Origin: a virus
DNA length: 43,871 bases
IMG/VR virus record: IMGVR_UViG_3300048062_000108
Coordinates: 1 to 43,871 of that record
Strand: one strand, 5' to 3'
A program made the translations under genes and the position numbers. The notes under the pieces were generated by a model. That model did not search any database. It was not told the origin of the DNA and saw only the letters and a program-made list of their open reading frames with translations. Below are positions 8,833-39,395 of this stretch, in pieces; position 1 is the stretch's first letter, and each line of letters opens with the position of its first letter.

Positions 8833-9152
8833 ATAATCCTCAAAAGAATGTTATACAGTATTATCGTTACAGATAAACCGGCTATAACACTACACCAAAA
8901 TCCTATCTTTGTAACTAGTAACCCAAATATAACAAAAAATACAAGACTTGTCAAGACAAAATATGTAGTTTCGAAACTAAACTTCGCAAATGCTTCTGCA
9001 TCAATGCCTGAATACCACATAAAAATCATTGCAAGAAAGGCAGTAAATGGTATACCCATTAGAAAAGCCGCCATTGTGACACTTCGTTGTGCCATCATAC
9101 TAACTGTTGCTATTACTATTCCTGATATTAATGCTTTTAAAAAGAATTCCAT
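8829..9152 (-). CDS. Small integral membrane protein, DUF3147-like
   Basis: 107 residues, nearly all hydrophobic, with four probable membrane segments (about 3-20, 27-47, 62-82, 84-106). The pattern MEFFLKALISGIVIATVS, then QRS-T--AFLMGIPFTAFLAMIFMW, matches the DUF3147 family of small membrane proteins of unknown function as I recall it. It overlaps the radical SAM gene by 16 bases and the dNMP kinase gene by 4, so the three are translated together. An AGGAG sits about 11 bases before the ATG. It presumably inserts in the host inner membrane. Whether it has a transport, holin-like or exclusion role cannot be told from the sequence. Confidence 0.75.
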   Translation of the reverse strand: MEFFLKALISGIVIATVSMMAQRSVTMAAFLMGIPFTAFLAMIFMWYSGIDAEAFAKFSFETTYFVLTSLVFFVIFGLLVTKIGFWCSVIAGLSVTIILYNILLRII

Positions 9153-10267
9153 AAATCTAACACTCCTAACTTTTCTATCATAGTATTTACTCTAATATCA
9201 TTTTCTTTTTCTTTGTCTATAATTTGTTTGAGTGTATATGAATGTTTTGTGTCTTGATTTATAAAATCTAATAGATAATTTAATTGCTCTTGTCCGTCAA
9301 ACTCTGATTTTAGTAAATGTGTTAGTTTTTCTTTTGTGTTTTTATCTAAATTTTTTAATGACATATGTTCTGGATAATCTAATAAATCAAATACAGGCAT
9401 CTTATTAAACTTTTGAAATGAATACTCTAGTACATCTTTCATTAAATGAATATTAAAGACATTTACTACTGTATGCATACCCAACTTAACATTATCAGTT
9501 TTATGCTCTATAAAATGATTTATGGTGTTCTCAATAGTATTCCATTTGTGTGGGGGTCTAAGTATTTCGTTTGCTTCACCAATAGCATCAATACTGAATA
9601 TGACTTCTACTTCTTTTAGTTTTGCCCATGATTCAAATATCTCTTGTTTTGGTATTATAGTTCCATTAGTATTATAAAACAATCTGACATTTTTTGGATT
9701 ATCTGATTTATTTACAATCTGTGTCAAAAAGTCCGCATGTTTCTTATCTAATAAAGGCTCACCGCCTACAAACTTAACAAAGTCTAATTTAGATAAATTA
9801 GCATCATAATATTTTAAATCAAATGAATCTACAGAAACATCAACTGGCATTCCTGGGTTCTTTATTAATTTCCATTTACTACTGAAAGTATCATTGCACA
9901 TTCTACATGATAAATTACAATGAGTAGACAAGGCAGTTTCTATATATCTTAATTCTGGTTTGTTTCCTATAAACTTATCGTATTGTTTGAATTGTTGTCT
10001 AAAAGACTCAACACCATTGTCCTCTGCACGCCAACATTTATCACACATTGAAAGTTTTTCACCTTTCAACATCTTATCTCTTATGTCATTAAAAAATTTA
10101 GAATTGAATGCATTGTGTAACCCATCTGATAACTTGGGTGCTTCATTAATGTTTGGGATATTATTTTCTTCCACGAAACAACAAGGAAGCACGGTGCCAT
10201 CTACCTTAAGCCTCGTATGAGACCATAGCAATGAACAAGCAGTGTTGGGTAAATTATCCAATGACAA
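9137..10267 (-). CDS. Radical SAM enzyme with N-terminal SPASM/twitch-like cluster
   Basis: 376 residues. The radical SAM signature CxxxCxxC is C117-NLS-C121-RM-C124 and is followed by FVGGEPLL (GGEP 168-171), the SAM-binding turn. Upstream, C11, C29-C30 (GTVLPCC) and C75-DK-C78 form an auxiliary Fe-S cluster motif of the SPASM/twitch type, placed before the core rather than after it. The enzyme should cleave S-adenosylmethionine to start radical chemistry. SPASM relatives often modify peptides, but the substrate here is unknown. The start is a TTG at 10267 (or TTG at 10261) overlapping the gp13 stop by 14 bases, and no ATG is available before the first Cys. Translation is therefore probably coupled to gp13. 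Confidence 0.87.
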   Translation of the reverse strand: MSLDNLPNTACSLLWSHTRLKVDGTVLPCCFVEENNIPNINEAPKLSDGLHNAFNSKFFNDIRDKMLKGEKLSMCDKCWRAEDNGVESFRQQFKQYDKFIGNKPELRYIETALSTHCNLSCRMCNDTFSSKWKLIKNPGMPVDVSVDSFDLKYYDANLSKLDFVKFVGGEPLLDKKHADFLTQIVNKSDNPKNVRLFYNTNGTIIPKQEIFESWAKLKEVEVIFSIDAIGEANEILRPPHKWNTIENTINHFIEHKTDNVKLGMHTVVNVFNIHLMKDVLEYSFQKFNKMPVFDLLDYPEHMSLKNLDKNTKEKLTHLLKSEFDGQEQLNYLLDFINQDTKHSYTLKQIIDKEKENDIRVNTMIEKLGVLDLWNSF

Positions 10268-11003
10268 ACCCTAGAGGAGCAGATCCATCAGTGTATGTCT
10301 GTAAGTCAGTTTCTAGTTTATCAAGAAGTACATCTGCTTCTTGTTTCATTGCATCACCGTTTAGTGTGACACCGCCTTGGGCGCCCGGTAATGAACCAAA
10401 CTTACTTCTTGCTTCACCTAGCATTTTCTTACAATACGCAAGTGTATAATCTCTCATCCAAGATTTTAAATAAGGGTCTTTGATTAGTTCGTCTTCTGGA
10501 CGTTCTAAATGAACATGTAATAAAACCATTTCGTCTGCCCTCATTCTACGTAATAATTTTATTTTTTTAGTTGTTGGATTCCAAATGAATTGTATGTCTG
10601 TTGCCGCAACTTTATTTAATGATTCACGATATTGAGCAAATGCATCAAACGTGGCTATACCACCAATATGATTATTCAAAAAGAAATATGAATTAGCATA
10701 TGCTAGTTCGAATGGGTCCATATCGACACCACCCGAAATACCATGACCAAAAGAACGATGCCATACTTGTTTGACTTCCATAATTTCTTTTGGAAGTGTG
10801 TATTCATCTACATCTCTTTTTAACTCTATTGAGTAAAAATCTTCTTCAACTGCATTTTCGGATCTTTGTTGTATTTTTGATATGGCAACTTCTACTGCCA
10901 AATCATAATGATCCGGATCCAATTCAATATCAACCATCCCATCGCCTAATAATAGACGAACCTCTTTGATTAAATCGTTTCTAACTTTGCTATTCTTTGG
11001 CAT
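10254..11003 (-). CDS. 13: Neck protein (T4 gp13-like)
   Basis: 249 residues. The C-terminal block EARSKFGSLPGAQGGVTLNGDAMKQEA followed by a T-DGSAPLGFVIG ending is, as I recall, the signature of neck gp13 in marine T4-like phages. N-terminal segments (LIKEVRLLLGDGMVDIELDPDHYDLAVEVAISKIQQRS and YTLPKEIMEVKQVW) fit a head-tail connector of the gp6/gp13 adaptor type. In T4, gp13 forms the neck with gp14 after packaging and closes the filled head. It has a GGAGATAATCA ribosome site and a late promoter at 11024-11031. It is a little shorter than T4 gp13 (309 residues). Confidence 0.85.
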   Translation of the reverse strand: MPKNSKVRNDLIKEVRLLLGDGMVDIELDPDHYDLAVEVAISKIQQRSENAVEEDFYSIELKRDVDEYTLPKEIMEVKQVWHRSFGHGISGGVDMDPFELAYANSYFFLNNHIGGIATFDAFAQYRESLNKVAATDIQFIWNPTTKKIKLLRRMRADEMVLLHVHLERPEDELIKDPYLKSWMRDYTLAYCKKMLGEARSKFGSLPGAQGGVTLNGDAMKQEADVLLDKLETDLQTYTDGSAPLGFVIG

Positions 11004-11023
11004 TGATTATCTCCAATATAATG

Positions 11024-11031
11024 TATTTATC
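11024..11031 (-). promoter_or_regulatory. Late promoter element GATAAATA for gp13
   Basis: Leftward GATAAATAC about 20 bases before the gp13 start and just past the terminator of the preceding gene. It would also drive the radical SAM, DUF3147 and dNMP kinase genes. Confidence 0.65.
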
Positions 11032-11052
11032 ATTTTTGTAATTGGAGCCATT

Positions 11053-11083
11053 AAAAAACCCACCAATAATAGTGGGTTTTAAA
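11053..11083 (-). terminator. Intrinsic terminator
   Basis: Stem AAAACCCAC / GTGGGTTTT (11055-11080) with an 8-base loop and six T residues on the leftward transcript. It follows the stop at 11106. Confidence 0.85.
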
Positions 11084-11105
11084 ATTTTAGATTTTTAACT
11101 AATTA

Positions 11106-11591
11106 TTAAGCTATTACAAATCCACGTTCTTCTGGAAGGTCTTCCATAATCGCTTTTTCTTTAGCTTGTGCATATGTAAAATAGTTACCCTGTTGTGATT
11201 GTACTTCTGCATCATTGCCATTATCTGCATCTGCAATATCATAAGGAACATCAGTGTATGTTTCATAAGGGTATGTAATACCGTGTTTGTCGTTAAGCCA
11301 TTGTCTAAATTCAGCCGTATATGCTTCGTAATTTGCAAAATGTCTTGCATTGATGAACTGAACGCATGTTGCACATCTATTAGCATCTGATGGATGCCAA
11401 CCGTAATGTTTAGCAGTTCCAAAAATAAAGTCATTTAATGCTCTAGCATACTTTGTCCCAACTTCATCTTTATATTCTTCTGTTAAGTCATGCATGATAG
11501 CAATCGCATCCCTGCCTGGGCGTGCATCTTTTACTGCATCAGGTATATTGATTTCAAGATAATAGTATCTTTTTTTGTTAACTTGTGCCAT
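11106..11591 (-). CDS. Hypothetical late protein, 161 residues
   Basis: Soluble mixed alpha/beta protein beginning MAQVNKKRYYYLEINIPD. It contains a CATC pair (residues about 79-82) within a segment HPSDANRCATCVQFINARHF, which could bind metal or form a disulfide. The second half is acidic and Tyr/Asn/Gln-rich. It has GGGAGAG before the ATG, a late promoter at 11649-11656 and a terminator after the stop, so it is a single-gene late transcript. That isolation suggests a protein needed in its own dosage, possibly a virion decoration. I do not recognise the family. Confidence 0.75.
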   Translation of the reverse strand: MAQVNKKRYYYLEINIPDAVKDARPGRDAIAIMHDLTEEYKDEVGTKYARALNDFIFGTAKHYGWHPSDANRCATCVQFINARHFANYEAYTAEFRQWLNDKHGITYPYETYTDVPYDIADADNGNDAEVQSQQGNYFTYAQAKEKAIMEDLPEERGFVIA

Positions 11592-11648
11592 TTATCTCTC
11601 CCGGGATAATAATTTACTAATTATGATACTCGTCAGTATCTACAGTTA

Positions 11649-11656
11649 TATTTATC
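11649..11656 (-). promoter_or_regulatory. Late promoter element GATAAATA
   Basis: Leftward GATAAATATAAC about 58 bases before the start at 11591, overlapping the stop of the upstream 424-residue gene. Confidence 0.6.
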
Positions 11657-12929
11657 AAAAAACCTTGAGAAGTAATGTATGTTCGTTAATTCTGCCATTC
11701 ATCTTAGTTTCGACAGATTTGATGGCATTGAACTCTTTATTTAATGAGCGTTTTGTTATCTTTTTGAAGATAGCCAGTTGTTCTTGTGGCTTTCTAAGTG
11801 TTTTTTGAATGCTCTCGCTTTCTTTAAAACGTATCATTGTAGTGCCTTTGACACTTAAACCAGACCCTTCTCGTCCTAGTCCCATAGGATCAATATTACT
11901 TGCATGATATACGCCTATCTTACGTGTTTTTGTGTTATAGACAACCGCAATGCTGGCACCTACAAGTTCTACTGGATTAATACTTACTGAGCCTGTTTCT
12001 GTATGTTCTTTACAGAACTTCATTTTAGATACAACTTTTTCTGCACTAATTGGTTTGCGTTTACGAGGCTTTCGGTCAAATTTTGCATTAGCAATAATCA
12101 TATCACATGCCTGTACAATGCTTTTATACATTTCATACATTGCTTTGATTTCGGACTTCTGTAAATATGCATAGCCTTCAATTAACTGATTGTGCCAATC
12201 AAGTTCTTTTTCTGTCATATTTTTTGTTGAAGGTGGATTAATAAGTTCATCATATTCTTTATAACACCCTTCATATAACTCTTTGATTATCTTGGCATGA
12301 TTTGCTTTTGCTTGTACTTTACGCAATAGACTCAATGGTTTAAAACTCTTTAAAGCACCATTAGTCATTTCAAAATCATTGATAAAATCATCAATTTCAT
12401 TAGTCATAGAAAATGCTTTTGCACGTAGTAATTCTTGGATACTAGGACGATAACGATTATTTTTCTTTAATTCTTCTTTTTCTTTTTCTTCTTTTTCTGC
12501 AACTTTATCCTTGCCTGTTTCTATTGCATTGCTTATACGTGTTTTAATAAAATCAGTTACAGGTGTTATATGACCGGTTGTGCCAGCAAGAGTTTGCCAA
12601 TAATCATCTTCTTTCTGATTATAATCTGGCATGCCATCTAATAATAATTTGCAAGAAATTGCTCCAGTTACACTTACTTCATAATCAGGTGCGGCTTTTA
12701 CAGAACGAATATCTTCATTTGTATAACCATTCTTTTCCATCCATTGTGTTGCAAAAGGATATAAATCTGCCGGTTTGTAATTTTGATAATAAAATTCTCT
12801 AGCCCAAATAACATGCCTATGAAACTTTTCACCAGACCACTCTTCCCAGTTATCCCATTTTGGTGACTCAAGTTTTGCTCCGCGCCGTGGTGCCGCTCTT
12901 GTAGTCTTTTTTCTTTTTGATAAACCCAT
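11655..12929 (-). CDS. Unknown 424-residue protein with basic N-terminus
   Basis: The N-terminus is strongly basic (MGLSKRKKTTRAAPRRGAK). Next comes an aromatic-rich domain (WDNWEEWSGEKFHRHVIWAREFYYQNYKPADLYPFATQWM), then a charged helical region around residues 140-155 (KDKVAEKEEKEKEELKK) and long helices to about 300. The C-terminal domain has VELVGASIAVVYNTKTRKIGVYHASNIDPMG and KGTTMIRFKESESI. It resembles unnamed conserved proteins I associate with T4-like marine phages. It is not the large terminase: there is no Walker A. The basic arm suggests nucleic-acid binding. AGGAG precedes the ATG, and a sigma70-like promoter (12974-13002) rather than a late element lies upstream. Confidence 0.75.
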   Translation of the reverse strand: MGLSKRKKTTRAAPRRGAKLESPKWDNWEEWSGEKFHRHVIWAREFYYQNYKPADLYPFATQWMEKNGYTNEDIRSVKAAPDYEVSVTGAISCKLLLDGMPDYNQKEDDYWQTLAGTTGHITPVTDFIKTRISNAIETGKDKVAEKEEKEKEELKKNNRYRPSIQELLRAKAFSMTNEIDDFINDFEMTNGALKSFKPLSLLRKVQAKANHAKIIKELYEGCYKEYDELINPPSTKNMTEKELDWHNQLIEGYAYLQKSEIKAMYEMYKSIVQACDMIIANAKFDRKPRKRKPISAEKVVSKMKFCKEHTETGSVSINPVELVGASIAVVYNTKTRKIGVYHASNIDPMGLGREGSGLSVKGTTMIRFKESESIQKTLRKPQEQLAIFKKITKRSLNKEFNAIKSVETKMNGRINEHTLLLKVF

Positions 12930-12973
12930 CGGGAACTCCTATAAATAATTTCGAATCAGCTTTATTAATTTCT

Positions 12974-13002
12974 ATTTAACTACAAAACGCATTTTTTGTC
13001 AA
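12974..13002 (-). promoter_or_regulatory. Sigma70-like promoter for the 424-residue gene
   Basis: Leftward TTGACA (13002-12997), 17-base spacer, TTAAAT (12979-12974). The -35 is perfect and the -10 matches 4 of 6. It overlaps the end of the PhyH gene and would give a leader of about 38 bases. Confidence 0.5.
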
Positions 13003-13694
13003 GTTTTAACCTTATCCGTGTTATTATCTAACAAAATGGCATCTTTTAGTACATCTTTGCGTAGTGCATTTATCAGTAACGCACTTCTATATAAATTAGA
13101 ATTATTAGGCATTGTACTATGTAATGTTCGACCGTCGTACATCAATACATCGCCTGCTTTTGCTAAAAACTGATGCCCTTCGTTGACCAATCTATCATTA
13201 TAGTGTTCTTGGTTGTCTTCAATATCTTTATAATATATTTTTTCTAAGTGTGAACCGGGAAGATATGCAGTCCCACCATTTTCTAAAGTAAAATCATTAA
13301 GAGGTATAATTATCTGTACGCCTAATGTATCGTCTATTCTAGCGTACTTTTCGAATCGGTAGGGTGTATCTACGTGTGCATAGATTTTGCTTGATTTAGG
13401 TGCTGTAGTGATACAATCAACTGCATGAATATCCCAATCACTAGATTTAAATATCGAATCTATATATTTTTTTAATGGTAAAACTACCGGTAGCCACATT
13501 TCTTTAGGAGGTGATGTAGTCCACCAAACATCATATGTTCGTTTTCCGTCGTGTTCATTATAGTAAATTCCGTCTGAACCATTGCCTCTATGAGCATTTT
13601 TAGGGTTCATTGCCCATAATCTGAACTGTTCTACTGCAATTCCTGGTAAATACCCACGTACAATCGTATATCCGTCATTGTTTGGTAGTTCCAT
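12999..13694 (-). CDS. PhyH-type Fe(II)/2-oxoglutarate dioxygenase
   Basis: 231 residues. The metal-binding facial triad is visible as H107-V-D109 and H192, with R203 placed to bind the 2-oxoglutarate carboxylate. Between them, GVQIIIPLNDFTLENGGTAYLPGSH (125-149) is the characteristic PhyH double-stranded beta-helix block. The family uses Fe(II), O2 and 2-oxoglutarate to hydroxylate small molecules, lipids or proteins. The substrate cannot be deduced here. It has a strong AAGGAGTAATAG ribosome site and its own sigma70-type promoter (13719-13747), implying earlier expression than the surrounding virion genes. Related oxygenases are common auxiliary genes in marine T4-like phages. Confidence 0.85.
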   Translation of the reverse strand: MELPNNDGYTIVRGYLPGIAVEQFRLWAMNPKNAHRGNGSDGIYYNEHDGKRTYDVWWTTSPPKEMWLPVVLPLKKYIDSIFKSSDWDIHAVDCITTAPKSSKIYAHVDTPYRFEKYARIDDTLGVQIIIPLNDFTLENGGTAYLPGSHLEKIYYKDIEDNQEHYNDRLVNEGHQFLAKAGDVLMYDGRTLHSTMPNNSNLYRSALLINALRKDVLKDAILLDNNTDKVKT

Positions 13695-13718
13695 CTATTA
13701 CTCCTTCATGATAACTTC

Positions 13719-13747
13719 ATTATATGATAAATACACATAGAAGTCAA
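13719..13747 (-). promoter_or_regulatory. Sigma70 promoter for the PhyH gene
   Basis: Leftward TTGACT (13747-13742), 17-base spacer, perfect TATAAT (13724-13719). It lies about 25 bases before the PhyH start, and a rightward late element sits inside its spacer. Confidence 0.72.
13726..13733 (+). promoter_or_regulatory. Late promoter element GATAAATA for gp14/gp15
   Basis: Rightward GATAAATAC, 25 bases before the gp14 start. It is embedded in the spacer of the leftward sigma70 promoter on the other strand. Confidence 0.68.
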
Positions 13748-13757
13748 GGAAAAAGAT

Positions 13758-14753
13758 ATGCCAAGATTAAGTTTATGGAATCCTCGTAAGGGAAATGATT
13801 ATAAGTTTATAGATAAATCAGTTAAGGCCCACTTTGAACATGGTGGTACTTCACTGCTTATCCATAAATATTTGGGGTCACAAGATACAACTGATCCCAA
13901 CTATGATCCTACTAAGCCAGCAATACAAGATTTGCTATTCATGGAGAATCGTGATAGAAAATATGACGATAACATCTATGACTTGCGTGGTGTTTATACA
14001 GTTACAGACCAAGATATGGACTTGTCTCAGTTTGGTATGTTCTTAGGGAACGACCAAATAATTTTTACACTACATCTAAATGATATGGTAGAAAAGATGG
14101 GAAGAAAATTAATGACTGGTGATGTAATTGAGTTACCTCATATGAGGGACGACTTATTACTTGACGAGGATGCTCCTGCTGTAAATCAGTATTGGGTGGT
14201 ACAAGATGCATCAAAGGCCGCAGAAGGCTTTGATCCAGGTTGGTGGCCACATATCTGGCGTGTTCGTTGTAAACAATTACAAGACACACAAGAGTATTCA
14301 GATATTCTTGGAACAGGTGAAGAAGCAGATGATTTAAAAAACATCTTGTCTACTTACAATAAAGAACTTCAAATCAATGATGCAATCGTTGAAGAGGCTC
14401 AAGAAAATGTTCCTGGAAAGTATTGGGATTATAGAACAAATAATCTTCAATATGCACAAGAAGGACAGCATCCAAAAGATATAGACATGGCGACAGTTGC
14501 CAGTGGTAGACAATTTCCAAATGAACCAGCAGAGAACACATACTTCTTACGTACTGATTACAAACCTGCAAGATTATTCCAATACAGAGATGATAAATGG
14601 TACAAAGTTGAAGATAGTGACGGTGGTTGGGAAGTTGGACATCACTTGCATCATCAATTTATTAATAATGATGGTGTCGTTAAACTTGAAGATGGTACAA
14701 CAATCACTGGTAAGGTAAATTTATCAAAAGCAGTGAAACCAAAGGTAGATTAA
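13758..14753 (+). CDS. 14: Neck protein (T4 gp14-like)
   Basis: 331 residues (T4 gp14: 256). The opening MPRLSLWNPRKGNDYKFIDK and HKYLGS, then FGMFLGNDQIIFTLHLNDMVEKMGRKLMTGDVIELPHMRDD and NQYWVVQDASKAAEGFDPGWWPHIWRVRCKQLQD, match the neck gp14 pattern in marine T4-like phages. In T4, gp14 forms a ring with gp13 joining head to tail. The distal 100 residues are an extension containing YFLRTDYKPARLFQYRDDKW, a Trp-bearing motif related to the sheath decorations, and His-rich HHLHHQF. A 1-base gap to gp15 and a shared late promoter make them one unit. Confidence 0.85.
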   Translation: MPRLSLWNPRKGNDYKFIDKSVKAHFEHGGTSLLIHKYLGSQDTTDPNYDPTKPAIQDLLFMENRDRKYDDNIYDLRGVYTVTDQDMDLSQFGMFLGNDQIIFTLHLNDMVEKMGRKLMTGDVIELPHMRDDLLLDEDAPAVNQYWVVQDASKAAEGFDPGWWPHIWRVRCKQLQDTQEYSDILGTGEEADDLKNILSTYNKELQINDAIVEEAQENVPGKYWDYRTNNLQYAQEGQHPKDIDMATVASGRQFPNEPAENTYFLRTDYKPARLFQYRDDKWYKVEDSDGGWEVGHHLHHQFINNDGVVKLEDGTTITGKVNLSKAVKPKVD

Positions 14754-14754
14754 T

Positions 14755-16134
14755 ATGGCGCAGGTAAAACAATCCCATTTTTATGATGAACAAATAAGAA
14801 GATATATTCTACAATTTATTAGAATATTCAGTGGGTTCAGTGTAAAAACAGGAAAGAAAATGAATGATGGTACAACTGATTATTATATTCGTGTGCCAGC
14901 AAGATATGGTGATATATCAAGAATGGCCGCTACTATCATGAAAGGCAATTCTGAGAATATTGTTAATTCTGCTCCATTTATAGGTTGTTGGATACAAAGT
15001 TTGCAACCAGATAGAGCAAGAGTACAAGAACCGTTCTTTAATGATGCTGTAGCAGTCACAGAAAGAAAATTTGATGAAACTACACAAGAATATGTTGATG
15101 AACCAGGTAATAGATTTAATGTAAGAAGACTTATGCCTGTTCCTTATCTGTTAAACATGCAAGTTGATGTTTGGACTAGTAATACAGACCAGAAATTACA
15201 ATTAATGGAACAAATATTAGTTTTATTTAATCCAGCATTAGAGATACAACACAATGATAATCCTGTTGATTGGACTACGATTACTACTGTAGAACTAACA
15301 GATATTCAATGGTCAAGTAGAGGTATTCCTGCAGGTATTGAAGACCAAATAGATATTGCTACTATGTTCTTTCAAATACCTATTTGGATTAATCCTCCAG
15401 CACAAGTTACTAGACAAAATGTAATTAGAAACATTATACATAACATATATAATTATACTGACTTAGACACATTAGATTATGATCCTGATGCTTTTGAATT
15501 CTTTAGTGATTTACAAAAACAATCAAGTGTAATTGTTACACCTGAAAACTTTTCACTAAAGATTACAGAAAACAACGGAAACTATTTATGTCAACCACTA
15601 AGAAGTGGTAATTATGAAGACGGTATAAAATGGGAAGATGTTTTAAAATATTATGGAAATTTAGATGATGGCATATCAAGACTTAGACTAAAATATCACG
15701 GTAGACTTGATGACCTTAATGCAGATGTTATAGGTACATTAAGTTCTACTACTAATCCTGAGTTCCTATCGTTCACTGTAGATAAAGATACGTTGCCTAC
15801 AAACACCGTAACCGCAGTAGACAGAGTGATAGATGCCGATAAGGCAAAACCAGGCTTCAACGGTATTCCACAACCAGCAGTAGGTCAAAGATATCTTTCT
15901 CTTACATCCGCTACTTCTAGTAGTGTATGGGGATTAGATATTGATATGAATGATATTATTGAATATAACGGTACAGCATGGGTTAAATCATTTGACGCAA
16001 GTTCATATGATTTACGTGCTTATGTATCAAATACATTTACTGGTCAACAATTCAAATTTGAAGAAGGTGAATGGTCAGATACATTCCAAGGAATATACGA
16101 TGCAGGCTATTGGAGACTAGAACTCATACAGTAA
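14755..16134 (+). CDS. 15: Tail sheath stabilizer/terminator (T4 gp15-like)
   Basis: 459 residues (T4 gp15: 272). The first 230 residues carry the gp15 pattern: HFYDEQIRRYILQFIRIFSGFSVKTG, YYIRVPARYGD-SRMAATIM, LLNMQVDVWTSNTDQKLQLMEQILVLFNP, TITTVELTDIQWSS and IDIATMFFQIPIWINPP. gp15 caps the completed tail tube and sheath and provides the surface that docks to the neck. The remaining 230 residues form an extension ending in IIEYNGTAWVKSF and QQFKFEEGEW-D-FQGIYDAGYWRL, again a Trp-bearing decoration type. The stop is followed by the Nudix gene after 14 bases. Confidence 0.85.
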   Translation: MAQVKQSHFYDEQIRRYILQFIRIFSGFSVKTGKKMNDGTTDYYIRVPARYGDISRMAATIMKGNSENIVNSAPFIGCWIQSLQPDRARVQEPFFNDAVAVTERKFDETTQEYVDEPGNRFNVRRLMPVPYLLNMQVDVWTSNTDQKLQLMEQILVLFNPALEIQHNDNPVDWTTITTVELTDIQWSSRGIPAGIEDQIDIATMFFQIPIWINPPAQVTRQNVIRNIIHNIYNYTDLDTLDYDPDAFEFFSDLQKQSSVIVTPENFSLKITENNGNYLCQPLRSGNYEDGIKWEDVLKYYGNLDDGISRLRLKYHGRLDDLNADVIGTLSSTTNPEFLSFTVDKDTLPTNTVTAVDRVIDADKAKPGFNGIPQPAVGQRYLSLTSATSSSVWGLDIDMNDIIEYNGTAWVKSFDASSYDLRAYVSNTFTGQQFKFEEGEWSDTFQGIYDAGYWRLELIQ

Positions 16135-16148
16135 AGAAAGTTTGAGAA

Positions 16149-16574
16149 ATGATTAAAGCCGCAGGCGCATGTATAATTGCCAAAGACACAAAAAGAATAA
16201 TACTTCAACAAAGAGATAAATTTGGCTCTCACCCTAGAAATTGGGGATTTTGGGGAGGCAAAATTGAAGAAAACGAAAATATTTCTCAAGGATTATTGAG
16301 AGAAGTTTGTGAAGAATTAAATCTTAACATCAAAAAAGATGTGATTAAGATTTATCCATTAGACCAATACCATTCCAGAAACAAAGACTTTAGTTATTAC
16401 TCATTTGTTATTGTAGTTAAGAAAGAATTCATTCCTAAACTAAATCATGAGAGTGGTGGTTATGCTTGGATAGAGCATGAATATTTTCCGAAACCATTAC
16501 ACCCAGGCACTCGCCGAACACTATTCAAAAAGAACAAATTAAAAGTTATTAGAGATATTATATCGTCATTATAA
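16149..16574 (+). CDS. Nudix hydrolase
   Basis: 141 residues. The Nudix box is G37-x5-E43-x7-R51-E52-V-C-E55-E56-L, with only the last Gly replaced by Asn58. The Glu residues bind the Mg2+ that activates water for pyrophosphate cleavage of a nucleoside diphosphate linked to another group. N-terminal AAGACIIAKDTKRIILQQR is the normal first beta-sheet. It sits within the rightward neck/tail operon and would be co-expressed late. Phage Nudix enzymes may sanitise the nucleotide pool or act on ADP-ribose, NAD or dinucleotide signals. The sequence does not tell which. Confidence 0.9.
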   Translation: MIKAAGACIIAKDTKRIILQQRDKFGSHPRNWGFWGGKIEENENISQGLLREVCEELNLNIKKDVIKIYPLDQYHSRNKDFSYYSFVIVVKKEFIPKLNHESGGYAWIEHEYFPKPLHPGTRRTLFKKNKLKVIRDIISSL

Positions 16575-16589
16575 TTAGTCTCCAAAAAT

Positions 16590-16597
16590 AGTAAATA
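16590..16597 (+). promoter_or_regulatory. Late promoter-like element AGTAAATA
   Basis: Rightward AGTAAATAC, 17 bases before the GTG start at 16614. It differs from the common GATAAATAC form at two positions. Confidence 0.4.
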
Positions 16598-16613
16598 CAG
16601 TAGGGAGACACGT

Positions 16614-17303
16614 GTGGATATTATAGATTTTAAAAAACAAAAATTTATACGTGACTGTATTGAGTTTTTAAAGACAAAAGAAATGTCAGAAGAACTTAAA
16701 AAGGTCATCAATACCGCCACACCTGGATATTTAGAGTACCTTAAAAAAGGCGAGAACAGTGATACAGTAAAAGTTATAGAAACTGCTATTACGAAAGTAA
16801 GACAACTATCTCAAAAAGAAATAACTTCAAACAGACAAAAAATCAATATAATAGCATTAAGCATATTAGAAAGTCTGGCAACTGACGATACTAGATTTCA
16901 AATAAAAGAAGTTACTAGCAGATATAGAGAATCTATAAATCCTGTAAAAGCATTATACTATGATTTACAAGAAATAATGTTCTTATATGATGGTAAACCA
17001 AAAAATAAACACCACAAGTTCTTAGTAGAAAAGTTTTCTAAAAAAGATGCATTTGATAATATCATAAATGCAGTAGATAGAGATTTAGAAGATTTAAAAG
17101 AATGTAAAACACGTATAAACAATCTAAAAAAAGAACTAGGCTTTTCTAATAGAAGTGAATATCATAAAAAAGTTTTAGATTTATATACAGAAATGAAACA
17201 ATGGAAAAGATTGTTTACTAAGTTCCCAGAATGGGTTAATGAGAATTATAAAGAAGATAACTCTAGTAGTCTCATTAAAACACTAAAGAAATTCTTCACA
17301 TAA
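16614..17303 (+). CDS. Helical hypothetical protein, GTG start
   Basis: 229 residues, Lys/Glu-rich and almost wholly predicted helical, with heptad-like stretches such as LEDLKECKTRINNLKKELGF. The start is the GTG at 16614 because GGGAG lies 8 bases upstream and no nearby ATG has a ribosome site. No catalytic motif or membrane segment is seen. It is the last gene of the rightward neck block and ends at a bidirectional terminator. A role in late assembly is inferred from position only. Confidence 0.75.
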   Translation: MDIIDFKKQKFIRDCIEFLKTKEMSEELKKVINTATPGYLEYLKKGENSDTVKVIETAITKVRQLSQKEITSNRQKINIIALSILESLATDDTRFQIKEVTSRYRESINPVKALYYDLQEIMFLYDGKPKNKHHKFLVEKFSKKDAFDNIINAVDRDLEDLKECKTRINNLKKELGFSNRSEYHKKVLDLYTEMKQWKRLFTKFPEWVNENYKEDNSSSLIKTLKKFFT

Positions 17304-17340
17304 AAAAAGGGCGCCATAGACGCCCTTCTCTTTTAATTTT
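17304..17340. terminator. Bidirectional intrinsic terminator
   Basis: Stem AAGGGCG / CGCCCTT (17307-17327) with a 7-base loop. A T-run follows on the leftward transcript and CTCTTTT follows rightward. It lies between convergent genes. Confidence 0.86.
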
Positions 17341-17348
17341 AGATAAGA

Positions 17349-18539
17349 TTATTTGCCAACTTTGACTTCTACCATGCCTTCGCCTTCTTCGATTTTATCT
17401 TTGATTGCGATACCGACATATGCTGTCATTTTTGGATCATGGTCTTCTTTCCATGCTGTAGCATGACCTTTGTGGTCTGCGGCAACCATAATGTCGCCTT
17501 TAGCAACTTTGCCTACTACTTTAACTGGAACACGACCTTGTAATGCGATTGCTGGGTGAGATGCGTTGTCACCTGCGCCTTCGTTCATTAAATATGCTGG
17601 TTTCATTGAAACAACACCTGCTAGTTTGTCACATCCGTGACCTTCTGCCGCTGTTACTTCTTTTTCACCGCCAAACATCATTACTGTACCTTCATCGTAT
17701 TCTGCATCTGCTTCATAACGTTCTGCAAGGTCGGCATATTTTGCCGTTGTTGCTTCACCGTTGAAACGTGTTGCTGTCATGTCACCACCGTTAGCAGTGA
17801 TATCACCTGATACTGTAAAGTCACCAGTATATGAACCGTCCATTGCGATTGTTCTGTCTGCACTTAAGTCACCACCGCCTGAAAGACCGTTACCCGCAGT
17901 AATAGTAGTTGCGTGTGCCGCCTTTGTAGCAATGTTTGTTGCTGTAGTTGTAGCAAAATTGGCATCATCGCCAAGAGCCGCCGCTAGTTCGTTTAGTGTA
18001 TCTAATGAACCAGGTGCCGCCGCCACTACTGCATTCGCGGCATCTGTTGCCGCCGTGTCTGCATAAGATTTTGTCGCTATTGTTGACGTATCAACATTGA
18101 TTTGATTATTTGCATCATCGTATGATAGACCTGTGTTAGCCATACCACCGATTAAGTCTTGTACAACTTCTTGTGCAGTTGAACCAAGAGTTAGACCTGC
18201 TTGTACATCTAGTGTACCTGCAACATCGGCGCCGCCGTCTAAATTAGCAGTACCATCAACTTCAATTTGATTTTTGAATTTGATTTTACCACTCATAGTT
18301 TTGGCGATTGTTGCACCACCATCACCTTTATCTTGCGATGCAAGAATAGATACGTTACGTTCTAGGTCTGAAATACGTCTTAAATTTGATTTTGTACCAG
18401 TGAAGATAATATCATCAGTGGTCATATCGACTGTACCTGTAATCTCTGCAATGTTACCAGTACTGTCATACTTATAACGCTTACCACGTTGAATTTTTGT
18501 ATTCGTGGAACCGTTATGTCTAAATTTTCTTCCCATCAT
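17349..18539 (-). CDS. Fiber/appendage protein with shared C-terminal domain
   Basis: 396 residues. The N-terminus is short and basic (MMGRKFRHNGSTN). The middle is a Thr/Ala/Asp/Gly-rich repeat region typical of trimeric phage fibers (GTANLDGGADVAGTLDVQAGL, GNGLSGGGDLSADRTIAMDGSYTGDFTVSGD). The C-terminal 140 residues begin TTAKYADLAERYEADAEY and include GTVMMFGGEKEVT, LAGVVS and HPAIALQGRVPVKVVGKVAKGDIMV. The same domain ends the 590-residue protein at 20921-22693, so the two are modular paralogues. The domain looks like the terminal maturation or adhesin domains of marine phage fibers. AGGAGACA precedes two adjacent ATGs. Confidence 0.72.
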   Translation of the reverse strand: MMGRKFRHNGSTNTKIQRGKRYKYDSTGNIAEITGTVDMTTDDIIFTGTKSNLRRISDLERNVSILASQDKGDGGATIAKTMSGKIKFKNQIEVDGTANLDGGADVAGTLDVQAGLTLGSTAQEVVQDLIGGMANTGLSYDDANNQINVDTSTIATKSYADTAATDAANAVVAAAPGSLDTLNELAAALGDDANFATTTATNIATKAAHATTITAGNGLSGGGDLSADRTIAMDGSYTGDFTVSGDITANGGDMTATRFNGEATTAKYADLAERYEADAEYDEGTVMMFGGEKEVTAAEGHGCDKLAGVVSMKPAYLMNEGAGDNASHPAIALQGRVPVKVVGKVAKGDIMVAADHKGHATAWKEDHDPKMTAYVGIAIKDKIEEGEGMVEVKVGK

Positions 18540-18556
18540 TGTCTCCTTAAATCGAA

Positions 18557-18614
18557 AGGTCTTTAGATGACCTCATGTTCATAATTGAACTGTAGGGGAG
18601 ATAAACTCCCCTAC
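18557..18614 (-). other. Leader with three consecutive hairpins
   Basis: The gap before the 396-residue fiber gene holds a perfect 9-base stem GTAGGGGAG / CTCCCCTAC (18592-18614), GTTCA / TGAAC (18577-18590) and AGGTC / GACCT (18557-18573). There is no U-run after the strong stem, so a classic terminator is unlikely. Processing, stability or attenuation between the two fiber genes is possible. Confidence 0.5.
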
Positions 18615-18625
18615 GTTGTTAAGTT

Positions 18626-20800
18626 TTATTGCTCGTCCATGTAGACTACTTCTACTTCATCGTCTTCTGCAAGAACGTCTGAGGCAAAAGTTAAGCCTGT
18701 TGAAGTAATTGTTACTTCATTTGGTCTCGCCATAATTCTGTTGATATAAACAACAGCATATGGTGAATCATTTATTTCTGATGCAAAATCTACGGCGTCT
18801 GAGCCTAAAGAAATTTTACCAGAAGTTAAAGTTGCCCATGTGATTGACTTGCTTGAACCAGTATTATCTGTTTCGTCTTGTGCAGTTGTCTCATACGCAT
18901 GAGTGTGTTTTTTAGAAGTGTTACCTAACTGTGCATAACGGCCGTCTAGTGATACTGTAACATCTGACTGTGTACCAACTGATAAAGTTAGCGTACCGCC
19001 TGAGAATGTTGCACCATCTACGTAGTCGTTGACTTCCGTTTGTGTGTTAGTAACAGTCATAGTACCTGCCGCATCATCATAAGATAATGAGATACCAGTA
19101 CCTGCTGTCATCATAGCACCAATACGGTCATCTACACGTTCATTTGTGAAGTATAGATTTGTTGAGCCTTCTGATAGGTCGTCTGTATCAGCCGCCGCCA
19201 TCTTAGTGTCCCAACGTGCAGTTGTATAATAAAGATTTGTTGAACCTTCAGATAGGTCATCTGTATCTTTTGCTGTAAAGCCTGCATCTACTCTCGCATC
19301 TGCTCTTGCATTTGTATAGTAAAGATTTGTTGAACCTTCTGTGACATCATCTGTGTCACCTGATAGTTCTGATAAAGCATCTTTGCCTTGAACTGCTGAT
19401 GTAACATATGCCTGTGTTGCATAACTGTTATTTGTTAAGTAAGTGTTAACTCTTGTATCTGTGTAGAACAAGTTAGCTGTACCTTCAGATATATCATCTG
19501 AGTCAGCCGCCGCAATTCTGGCATCCGCTCTTGCATCTGTATAATAAAGATTTGTAGTACCTTCTGTTAGGTCATCCGTGTCTTTAGTTCCCAGTCTTGT
19601 ATCCCAACGAGCATTTGTATAGTAAAGGTTTGTTGAACCTTCAGCTAGGTCATCTGTATCTGATGATGCTAGACCTTGTGTTGAGATAACACCTGTTGAT
19701 GAGTCGTAAGTTAAGTCGCCTGATACTGAGATTGCATCTCTAACTCTTTGGGTTGTATGATATTGATTAGATGTACCTTCTGTTAGGTCATCTGTATCAA
19801 GACCTGTTAGAGCCGCTACTGTATCTGCTTGACCTGTAACATCACCTGTTAAGTTACCGATAAATGAACCTGATGAGTATAGGTCTTCTGCACCTACTGA
19901 CCATCTGTCATTTGATTCGTCCCATAATAGTTGAACATTTAGGTCATCACCACGTTCAATTTCTATACCACCAGAAGCTGTAGCATTACCTGTTGCATCT
20001 GAGTTTAGAAGCAGAATATTGTCTGCTAAATTGATTTGTGATGTATTAATTGTTGTTGTAGTACCTGAAACTGTTAGGTTACCACCGATAGTCGCATTAC
20101 CTGATGTAGTTAATGTCGTACCTGAGATAGCCGCCGTACCTGCACCAATGCCTGTTGTGATTGCACCATCAACATAATTTTTGTTAGCCGCGTCTGTGCC
20201 AGATACTGGAGTAGCAACTTCTTTAAGTAGGTTTGAGTTCATATCAATATGGTCACCAACTTGAATATCACCTGATGATGTGTTAATTTCACCATCGATT
20301 GCGATACCATTTGCTGATTGTATTTGAAGTGTACCTGTTCCTGATGTTGCAACTTTTAAGTTCTGGTCTTGTGTTGTTGAAATTTGAATTGTTCCAGAGT
20401 CATCGTCAATAACTTTTTTACCATTCACATAAAGTGAACCTGGACCAACGTAGATATCACGCCACATCATTGTGGATGAACCTAAGTCGTAAGTTATGTT
20501 AGCCGCTGGAATAATGTGACCTGTCATGTCTAGGTCACCAGTAATTGCCGCACCACCTGAAAGTGTTGCCGCATTAGTAACTGCTAGTGTACCGCCTATT
20601 GTAACATTCGATGAGAATGAACCTGTAGATGAAGTTGCCGAAGCACCTTCTCTCATTAGAGGGTAACCACCAGTTGTTGAACCATCGTGTACTACAAGAG
20701 TTTTCTTGTCTGTATCGACTGTAACTTCACCAAGTAGGCCAGTAAATGATGAATGTTGTGTCGTTGTGCCACGACGGAATTGGATTGCATATGCCGCCAT
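18626..20800 (-). CDS. Long tail fiber protein with DDLxEGxTNLYYT repeats
   Basis: 724 residues. The first 45 residues (AAYAIQFRRGTTTQH, LGEVTVDTDKKTLVVHDG) resemble the N-terminal domain of phage tropism-determinant and fiber proteins that anchors them to the particle. A beta-rich Gly/Thr/Ser region follows. From about residue 335 to 575 there are seven copies of a motif like DTDDLTEGSTNLYYTNAR followed by a short helix. The last 130 residues are a distinct head-like domain (VTVSLDGRYAQLGNTSKKHTHAYETT, then VVYINRIMARPNEVTITSTGL). It probably forms a trimeric receptor-binding fiber. It has a late promoter at 20877-20884 and a GGGAG ribosome site. Confidence 0.8.
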   Translation of the reverse strand: MAAYAIQFRRGTTTQHSSFTGLLGEVTVDTDKKTLVVHDGSTTGGYPLMREGASATSSTGSFSSNVTIGGTLAVTNAATLSGGAAITGDLDMTGHIIPAANITYDLGSSTMMWRDIYVGPGSLYVNGKKVIDDDSGTIQISTTQDQNLKVATSGTGTLQIQSANGIAIDGEINTSSGDIQVGDHIDMNSNLLKEVATPVSGTDAANKNYVDGAITTGIGAGTAAISGTTLTTSGNATIGGNLTVSGTTTTINTSQINLADNILLLNSDATGNATASGGIEIERGDDLNVQLLWDESNDRWSVGAEDLYSSGSFIGNLTGDVTGQADTVAALTGLDTDDLTEGTSNQYHTTQRVRDAISVSGDLTYDSSTGVISTQGLASSDTDDLAEGSTNLYYTNARWDTRLGTKDTDDLTEGTTNLYYTDARADARIAAADSDDISEGTANLFYTDTRVNTYLTNNSYATQAYVTSAVQGKDALSELSGDTDDVTEGSTNLYYTNARADARVDAGFTAKDTDDLSEGSTNLYYTTARWDTKMAAADTDDLSEGSTNLYFTNERVDDRIGAMMTAGTGISLSYDDAAGTMTVTNTQTEVNDYVDGATFSGGTLTLSVGTQSDVTVSLDGRYAQLGNTSKKHTHAYETTAQDETDNTGSSKSITWATLTSGKISLGSDAVDFASEINDSPYAVVYINRIMARPNEVTITSTGLTFASDVLAEDDEVEVVYMDEQ
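19138..19800 (-). repeat. Seven imperfect tandem repeats in the fiber gene
   Basis: DNA-level direct repeats of about 50-60 bases, separated by variable linkers, encode the (S/T)DD(L/I/V)(T/S/A)EG(S/T)(T/A)NLYYT motif. Units begin near 19138, 19219, 19310, 19456, 19535, 19612 and 19750. Near-identical stretches could recombine and change fiber length. Confidence 0.8.
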
Positions 20801-31295: not shown

Positions 31296-31324
31296 TTGAC
31301 AAGTTTAACTTCGTAGTTTATAAT
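31296..31324 (+). promoter_or_regulatory. Consensus sigma70 promoter for the gp26-type gene
   Basis: Rightward TTGACA (31296-31301), 17-base spacer, TATAAT (31319-31324): all 12 consensus bases match. Predicted start near 31331, leader about 64 bases. The block TAGTTTATAATAT recurs 35 bases downstream (31349-31361). Confidence 0.85.
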
Positions 31325-37420: not shown

Positions 37421-38437
37421 TTACAAATTCTGGTATAGTTCTACGAGTACTTTTTTATTAAAGCTACCGTTATCGTCAATAGAATTCAACTGAGAGATAA
37501 CAATTTCATCAATCGTTTCAAAATGTATCTCAGCACCAGTATCTTCTTCGTGTTGTGCATTTTTCATTTGTTGTAACGTTATGTCTCGCAAGTCATAAGT
37601 TTCAATAAAGGTATCTTTAATGAAGTTTGCTTCTTCATATGATATATCAATATCTAGTGAAATTCTTGCATTTGTTTTTGGCAGTAAAATTTCACTGGGA
37701 TTTTTAAGTAAGGAAGACAACGTGACATTTCGGTATTTAGGAGCATTGGGCCATGCAAAGAATTCGGGTTCTTTATCCCACTCTAAAAACATCCAACCTC
37801 GTTCATCGTCCCATGAATCTGAAAAGTTGTGTGGGAATGCATTGCCCGTATATATCACGTTGCCTTTTATTTGTCGATGATGAAAATGTCCTGAAAACAC
37901 ATAGTCTTGATGTTTGAACATTTCACTTTTTAAACCACCATGATCCGGCATTTCAACCATCGCATTAAGTTTAAATGTCGGGAGTTCAAAGTGTCCAAAC
38001 ATATACTTTGATTTTATCTTCGGAATTTTTTTCCACTCATCACCAACTAACCAACTGACAAATGTAACATCACCTTGAGTGAGTACATTGTCAATCAGAA
38101 TAATGTTAGGTAGTTCTTTTGCAAACTCTACTGAGTTTACATCACGTGTTTCACGATAAAATAAATCGTGATTACCTAAAATAAAATAAACTTTATCAAA
38201 AGCGTTGTTTAGTTTTCTGAGTCCATCTAGTGAATACTTCATAGTTGAAATATTCAAACTAGCACGATTATGATGCCAGTCGCCACCAAATATACAGGTT
38301 TCACAACCTTTTGCTTTGGCTTCTTCGATAAACCAGTCTATAAATTCGTCACAATCTTCATTATGCCACTTTGCGTTGTTACGCATACCATAGTGAATAT
38401 CAGTGAACCAAGCCGCTTTGTTGAAAAGATTAGTCAT
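37421..38437 (-). CDS. 47: Recombination endonuclease subunit, Mre11-like (T4 gp47)
   Basis: 338 residues, matching T4 gp47 (339). Calcineurin-type phosphoesterase motifs are all present: FTDIHYG (D13, H15), GGDWHH (51-56), LGNHD (87-91), a central FGHFE, and SGHFHH near residue 180, which bind two Mn2+ ions. The C-terminal region contacts gp46. The complex processes double-strand ends. The gene starts inside the end of gp55 (8-base overlap) and is expressed from the same early operon. Confidence 0.95.
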   Translation of the reverse strand: MTNLFNKAAWFTDIHYGMRNNAKWHNEDCDEFIDWFIEEAKAKGCETCIFGGDWHHNRASLNISTMKYSLDGLRKLNNAFDKVYFILGNHDLFYRETRDVNSVEFAKELPNIILIDNVLTQGDVTFVSWLVGDEWKKIPKIKSKYMFGHFELPTFKLNAMVEMPDHGGLKSEMFKHQDYVFSGHFHHRQIKGNVIYTGNAFPHNFSDSWDDERGWMFLEWDKEPEFFAWPNAPKYRNVTLSSLLKNPSEILLPKTNARISLDIDISYEEANFIKDTFIETYDLRDITLQQMKNAQHEEDTGAEIHFETIDEIVISQLNSIDDNGSFNKKVLVELYQNL

Positions 38438-39302
38438 TGTCTGCGTATATCTCTTTGATTGTCTCTGTTGGCATTTGGTCGTCTGTAATTCTTGTTTTAA
38501 TTACTTTCTGCCATCTTTCTTGAGACTTCATTTCATGTTCTAACTGTCTAGTCCAACTTGGCATCTGACCTGATTTCTCTAATAGGTCATCACGTATGCC
38601 TTGATTTTTCTTTTCAGTGTTTAAAACACGTGTAAATGAATTGTTAACTGCCGCGGTGTAATATGCAAATGGATTGTCTGATTTTGCTTCGTTAAATTGT
38701 AAACCAATTTGTGTAAGTTGCAATAATGCTTGTCCACGCATTTCATCAATGTATGTGTAACCACGCCAGTTACTTCTTTGAGAATAACGCTCTACTAGTT
38801 TAATATACATGTTGGCAAGTTTCGCTGTGATTTTGCCAGCTTGTAAATCAAACTCTTTGTTTTTGTTATGATGTGAAATAGCCACTTCTCTGAACTTTCT
38901 TCCGTCTAAAACATAATGTTTGAATGGAGGAAAGTTTAGCTTGACTTTGTGGTCAGCTATTGTCTTTGGATTGTTCTTTCTTCCGGGTTCATCAGGGATA
39001 TGGTCAAATGTCATAACTCTGAATATCAAACTGTTTTTATCGATTGATTCTGGATCAACTAAAAAGTCAGATTGTCTTTTCTTTTTGTCTTCGTTTAGTT
39101 CCCAGGCTAGTTTTTGCATTCTATCTGCCCGGTTTTGTTGTGCTTGAGGGATAGCGTCACGAATTTCGCTTGTTCCATCAACTATAATATCGTATTGATG
39201 ATATGCTTCTCGGTCTTCATACCAAGTGTAATTACCCTTTGAGGTATGGATTTCCTTAAGCATATCTTTGTTGTTTAAATAATTTTGACCTCTACGTGCC
39301 AT
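38430..39302 (-). CDS. 55: Late-transcription sigma factor (T4 gp55-like)
   Basis: 290 residues (T4 gp55: 185), so it has an N-terminal extension. The core KLVERYSQRSNWRGYTYIDEMRGQALLQLTQIGLQFNEAKSDNPFAYYTAAVNNSFTRVLNTEKKNQGIRDDLLE (about residues 185-260) is the sigma region 2-like signature of gp55 in marine T4-like phages. gp55 replaces host sigma on RNA polymerase and recognises the TATAAATA-type late octamer seen repeatedly here. A TTGACA-N18-TATAAT promoter and AGGAGC ribosome site lie directly upstream, as expected for an early regulator. It leads the operon containing gp47, SDR and gp46. Confidence 0.95.
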   Translation of the reverse strand: MARRGQNYLNNKDMLKEIHTSKGNYTWYEDREAYHQYDIIVDGTSEIRDAIPQAQQNRADRMQKLAWELNEDKKKRQSDFLVDPESIDKNSLIFRVMTFDHIPDEPGRKNNPKTIADHKVKLNFPPFKHYVLDGRKFREVAISHHNKNKEFDLQAGKITAKLANMYIKLVERYSQRSNWRGYTYIDEMRGQALLQLTQIGLQFNEAKSDNPFAYYTAAVNNSFTRVLNTEKKNQGIRDDLLEKSGQMPSWTRQLEHEMKSQERWQKVIKTRITDDQMPTETIKEIYADND

Positions 39303-39355: not shown

Positions 39356-39395
39356 GTGAAATATGAACTTTTTTAAACTACGAACTTTATATAAC

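Follow-up and report, generated by a model that had tools for sequence, protein, structure and literature searches.

The described systems that come closest to the locus analysed here are the bidirectional promoters of E. coli, the early-late junction of phage phi29 and the late promoters of phage T4. According to parts of PMC12825309, the basal activity of the E. coli promoters is too low for their two directions to compete, and repression is seen only under strong activation of one of them. For phi29, parts of PMC3100819 describe a switch that represses early and activates late transcription at one place. In T4, gp55, gp33 and the gp45 clamp drive late transcription, which is tied to replication (parts of PMC2988020); the late octamer spans positions -13 to -6, and its base at -13 varies between phages (parts of PMC1524935).

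In the 43,871-nucleotide stretch of viral DNA analysed here (the window), motifs of a putative early and of a putative late promoter occupy opposite strands of the same 29 bases. The minus strand of positions 13719-13747 reads TTGACT-N17-TATAAT and forms a predicted leftward sigma70-type promoter directed toward a PhyH gene, with the -35 hexamer TTGACT at 13742-13747 and the -10 hexamer TATAAT at 13719-13724; with its 17-base spacer it matches 11 of the 12 box bases of the sigma70 pattern (TTGACA, 16-18 bases, TATAAT), and both boxes are assigned from the motif and from relatives. On the plus strand the putative late promoter GATAAATAC occupies 13726-13734 and lies wholly within that spacer. 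A preliminary description of this DNA had placed a late motif inside the spacer of the leftward promoter, on the other strand, and the coordinates bear this out. It had also called the nonamer GATAAATAC an octamer; here the site stands and the label does not, the equivalent of the T4 octamer being GATAAATA (13726-13733) followed by a conserved C. The leftward -10 and this octamer adjoin, with no bases shared.

Transcription is predicted to start at 13712 leftward and, by the T4 octamer rule, at 13739 rightward, a computed separation of 27 bp that places the early -10 at -20 to -15 relative to the predicted late start. The 5' leader of the late transcript, predicted by the same rule to cover 13739-13757 on the plus strand, includes the -35 of the opposing promoter as well as an AAGGA ribosome site. 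In general, a sigma70 transcript starts about 7 nt past the -10, and a T4-type late octamer lies about one helical turn ahead of its start. The ATG of the virion ORF, at 13758, lies 32 nt from the first base of the octamer; on the minus strand, the start of the PhyH ORF (13694) is 24 nt past the leftward -10.

The expected leftward target (12999-13694, minus strand) encodes a 2OG-Fe(II) oxygenase of the PhyH family (PF05721, E 8e-16), and HxD is found in 68 of 68 translated relatives. Marine T4-like cyanophages have PhyH-domain genes among their core genes (parts of PMC3037559), so the gene type was already known. The rightward unit begins with a virion structural protein gene (13758-14753, plus strand; phrog_11591, E 3e-87) and continues with a gene for a gp15-like tail sheath stabiliser (14755-16134, plus strand; PF16724, E 3e-27), after which a NUDIX gene follows. 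The targets had earlier been named gp14/gp15: the second name holds, on the PF16724 match, and the first is unconfirmed, the protein being assigned only to the virion structural family phrog_11591. This protein gave no Pfam or NCBIfam match, nor a convincing one in a profile comparison with the PDB. It has relatives in the jumbo phages PA5oct, RaK2, 121Q and others; among the best 40 of 60 records the annotated relatives are mostly jumbo phages, at about 30-43% identity, and a search of the phage collection by virion gene found no cultured close relative in those 40.

Three properties of T4-type late promoters are found at the rightward site. The motif GATAAATA is close to TATAAATA, as judged on the motif alone; the site precedes structural genes (phrog_11591, then gp15); and the phage encodes a gp55-like late sigma factor (38430-39302, minus strand; phrog_12791, E 1e-81; phrog_234, E 2e-21), the expected reader of GATAAATAC.

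Motif counts in the window were compared with chance. TTGACT-N16-18-TATAAT has a single match, for which shuffles give an expectation of 0.11 (11 of 100 reach one), and strict sigma70 boxes (TTGACN-N14-18-TATNAT) number 6 in the whole window vs 1.08 expected, a count reached by 0 of 100 shuffles. A generic sigma70 scan of 9000-19000 gave no excess (34 sites vs 46 in shuffles), the junction site tying for the top score. ATAAATA is not enriched in the window (19 vs 22 expected), and neither is TATAAATA. All ten copies of GATAAATA in the window are on the correct strand and within the 100 nt ahead of an ORF start (binomial p 1e-14 at an eligible share of 4.0% of strand positions). Single motifs alone prove little; placement, strict boxes and, above all, conservation exceed chance.

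Conservation was examined in two sets of relatives. The first comprised the best 80 of 500 viral-contig loci by virion protein, all at least 76% identical; 79 of them extend far enough upstream (L043, with 9 nt, does not), and each of the 79 displays GATAAATAC and GTCAA at equal distance, a distance that was read by eye, with the pattern check made after removal of duplicates. The wider set held 116 nonredundant loci, 71 with a virion protein at least 74% identical (the clade, forming 49 clusters at 95% nucleotide identity), 12 at 45-70% and 33 below 45%. Pairwise ungapped identity over the first 600 nt of the virion gene falls to 55% within the clade, and the element itself takes the form of 27 distinct 29-mers. 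The nonamer is present in 71 of 71 loci. The -35 is TTGACT in 68, TTGACA in two and TTAACT in one; the -10 is TATAAT in 37, TATAGT in 18, TATTAT in 10, TATACT in three, TATATT in two and AATATA in one. The preliminary description had raised the question of whether related phages keep the two motifs overlapping, and they do: TTGAC[T/A]-N17-TATNNT is found in 70 of the 71 loci, in a register fixed relative to the late motif. The distance from octamer to virion gene ranges from 32 to 96 nt, and in clade loci whose sequence extends far enough, the gene to the left is PhyH. In two loci, PhyH and the late motif are kept and the sigma70 box is weak. L277 has TTAACT as its -35 and a displaced -10; L415 (70% identity) has a PhyH-like start and an intact -10, with TTGCAT as its -35. 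Best-match scoring demanded four of six bases in the -35, so that these two score zero or low, though poorer boxes are legible by eye.

Separately, in four loci (L202, L122, L147 and L129) the interlocked element is kept 96 nt upstream of the virion gene, and the interval contains a short reading frame, of about 12 codons, that has a ribosome site of its own.

The column profile, calculated from cluster representatives and including one row (L004, short upstream) offset by one base, averages 1.86 bits per column in the -35, 1.89 in the octamer plus C and 1.56 in the -10; the information is lower in the 6 bases between octamer and -35 (0.93 bits) and in 53 upstream columns (0.46 bits). Nine fourfold-degenerate sites of the virion gene average 0.59 bits, none reaching 1.8. 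Within the -10, the first three bases and the last are the most fixed (0.97-0.99), which is the usual sigma70 pattern. In a subclade with a moved ribosome site, GTCAA keeps its position relative to the octamer, which argues that GTCAA is not kept for translation. On this comparative evidence, we judge the two-promoter anatomy to be real and under selection.

Other promoters of these phages served as controls. At the head-tail adaptor gene, the late promoter has GATAAATA in 68 of 68 nonredundant loci, the next base being C at a frequency of 1.00, and carries the same nonamer as the junction but without the GTCAA block. The tail sheath gene proved a less clean control: 9 of 37 nonredundant loci have GATAAATA in the 130 nt before it, and in some the upstream sequence is too short. 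At the gp55 junction, 39 nonredundant loci of at least 73% identity all have both sigma70 boxes and a late octamer (39/39 each); there the two promoter types lie 25-75 bp apart and are interlocked in 0 of 80 loci. As the same two types occur unlocked at gp55, the rigid register is special to the PhyH junction.

Several further sites were noted in these regions. A candidate late antisense promoter downstream of PhyH (TATAAATA at 12940) was rejected, a comparable motif being present in only 2 of 68 loci. At 12950-13000, which separates PhyH from the following leftward ORF (424 aa), several relatives share a conserved GAATC...TTTCTATTTAAC.ACAA, perhaps a promoter or a terminator. The near-palindrome AACTWCGWASTT occurs at 31307-31318, within the spacer of a TTGACA-N17-TATAAT promoter toward a baseplate gene and immediately ahead of its -10, and at 39376-39387, upstream of the late octamer opposite gp55. 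A search of 25 records showed it followed by TATNNT at most 8 bases on in 9 of them (reversed control, 0), and it may be the operator or activator site of a putative phage regulator.

A scan of the collection for TTGACNNNTNNNNGTATTTATCNTAT, made without gene information, returned at least 119 stretches, giving at least 111 new loci. Among the 111 matches listed, which include near-identical contigs and represent 20 distinct 26-mers, 107 lie between a PhyH gene and a virion gene; two more display the virion gene only, at a contig end, and two (L116 and L205) are elsewhere and lack the last T of the -10. The 26-base motif has at most one match per fetched locus, and the similar pattern TTGAC...GTATTTATC one match per record in 7 records of 58-343 kb. 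A looser pattern matched in 20 of 22 records, against 3 matches in 22 records for its reversed control. Beyond the junction sites it produced 7 rows at 6 places, two of these places being one site in two similar records, and one shifted read of the G006 junction site; these extra matches are not much above the reversed control. In a 342-kb relative (L515, 2561-2589), a leftward ORF of 182 aa and a tRNA-Gly gene flank a second interlocked-like site, with a rightward sigma70-like site adjoining. Similar sites in Salicola phage SCTP-2 (6 matches, control 0) were set aside, five being between co-directional genes and one inside a gene. Three of the intergenic sites (MF360958.1, 240648, 415109 and 110337) are near-identical copies of TTGACGAGG..ATTTATAGATATAAT and may form a family of repeated promoters whose opposite strand carries TATAAATA.

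More distant relatives bear on the origin of the arrangement. A scan for virion genes lacking the -35 returned many stretches that do not match the virion protein, but was also the source of the intermediate relatives; the shuffle used in comparing sigma70 boxes across relatives preserved dinucleotides approximately. Eleven nonredundant loci at 45-52% identity keep a late-type TAAATA with no sigma70 box around it, and PhyH was not found upstream in these 11, some of which have little upstream sequence. Below 45% identity, 11 of 33 nonredundant loci have a strong leftward sigma70 promoter beside the late motif, not around it, and their left genes differ (ClpA-like in RaK2 and 121Q, for example). 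A simple reading, drawn from one clade, is that the late site would be the older, and that the arrival of PhyH would have been accompanied by the formation of sigma70 boxes around it. As all clade loci are probably of one ancestor, the arrangement may have arisen once.

The 29 bases are best classed, from their motifs, as a bidirectional promoter with a different predicted sigma specificity on each strand. The explanation that we favour, with a probability of about 0.55, is a two-sigma bidirectional promoter with exclusive occupancy, at which late initiation would help to turn PhyH off. Early in infection, host sigma70 polymerase would transcribe PhyH leftward; late polymerase would open the same DNA rightward after the gp55-like sigma and the replication clamp have appeared. 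The two occupancies would exclude each other, and strong late initiation would help PhyH off as the virion genes go on. The predicted late leader includes the opposing -35, and the early -10 falls a short way upstream of the predicted late start. Two polymerases should not fit, and the geometry should keep them from sitting at the junction together. Local blocking late in infection is plausible by analogy with T4, since late transcription there is activated by the gp45 clamp, and an early-to-late switch at the junction is a good hypothesis. The preliminary description had already proposed such blocking as a built-in switch, and it is supported in part: its two opposed promoters and their overlap hold, and the blocking, the early role of PhyH and selection for a switch are its conjectural side. 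Against exclusive occupancy with a role in switching stand L277 and L415, in which PhyH and the late motif persist beside a weak sigma70 box, and the lack of competition at basal strength in the E. coli study (parts of PMC12825309). A stronger variant, derived from the dependence of gp55-type promoters on the replication clamp, is a toggle in which the onset of replication alone would flip the junction from the metabolic gene to the virion genes with no separate repressor; this we consider doubtful. A competing explanation, which we regard as possible without favouring it, is that both promoters are real and their interlock is a frozen accident of compaction, PhyH being shut off by a global takeover of polymerase (an AsiA-like factor, gp55 and gp33 displacing sigma70) and not by local blocking. 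Once the octamer lay in the spacer, separating the two would need several simultaneous changes, and selection on each promoter alone would suffice to keep the overlap, so its conservation does not show that the overlap is useful. The gp55 junction, with the same promoter types not interlocked, fits this account, as do the 45-52% relatives, in which a late-type motif stands without a box that could later have formed round it. The recurrence of close packing in 11 of 33 distant nonredundant loci with other left genes speaks against an accident, but is suggestive only.

Readings with one functional promoter, or none, fare far worse. If only the rightward late promoter were real, GTCAA would be part of its leader or ribosome site, as its place within the predicted leader and, in many loci, beside AAGGA might suggest; yet GTCAA stays fixed when the ribosome site moves, the adaptor late promoter does without it, the -10 columns upstream of the octamer are fixed in the sigma70 pattern and a divergent PhyH gene starts nearby. 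If, conversely, only the leftward promoter were real, GTATTTATC in its spacer would be a regulator site, and sites for activators or repressors are common in spacers; but correctly oriented copies of this motif also stand ahead of other ORFs in the window, and relatives for which the search found no PhyH still have late-type motifs upstream. The adaptor and gp55 controls and the column profile led us to rule out both, and we regard each as very improbable. Least probable is a chance overlap in AT-rich DNA: loose motifs are indeed at chance level in the window, but 70 of 71 loci share one fixed register, with virion genes that differ at up to 45% of bases (first 600 nt, ungapped), and the reversed looser pattern gave only 3 matches in 22 records. 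Conservation refutes chance, unless the loci are one recent lineage.

Should the competition that we favour be real, the geometry of two sigma sites would provide a minimal early-to-late switch free of a repressor, an auxiliary metabolic gene would be tied to the state of replication, and the junction would offer a clean natural test of competition between two-sigma polymerases at one site. Even without a switch, a large group of uncultured marine jumbo phages gains a promoter annotation that is well supported.

Among the matches listed in open-licence full texts, none was seen to describe a gp55-type promoter within the spacer of a sigma70 promoter; most of the subscription literature lies outside these texts, and novelty is therefore provisional. 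The interlocked pattern was not found in the T4 record with the boxes TTNACN/TATNAT, which may miss divergent T4 early promoters, and the annotation of that record has no promoter features in the first 50 kb. The terms 'phage' and 'different sigma' are absent from the main text of PMC12825309.

As in the E. coli bidirectional promoters (parts of PMC12825309), the overlap is divergent and admits one polymerase at a time, an exclusion that is here expected from the geometry, and in E. coli activating one side can repress the other. The E. coli promoters use one sigma and a shared symmetric -10, whereas the junction has motifs for two sigma factors and its -10 elements are unshared; a shared symmetric -10 in the sense of that study is thus not found here. 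The starts in E. coli are mostly 18, 10 or 23 bp apart, compared with the predicted 27 bp. Like the A2c/A2b-A3 region of phi29 (parts of PMC3100819), the junction brings a predicted early and a predicted late promoter together in a single intergenic region. The phi29 switch needs p4 and p6 between separate promoters, with p4 sites overlapping the early -35 elements; unlike in phi29, the late promoter here sits in the spacer of the early one. As with the T4 late promoters, whose octamer is NATAAATA (parts of PMC2988020 and PMC1524935), a gp55-type sigma is encoded in the genome and the site is located just upstream of virion genes, but the first base of the octamer is G here and a fixed C follows it.
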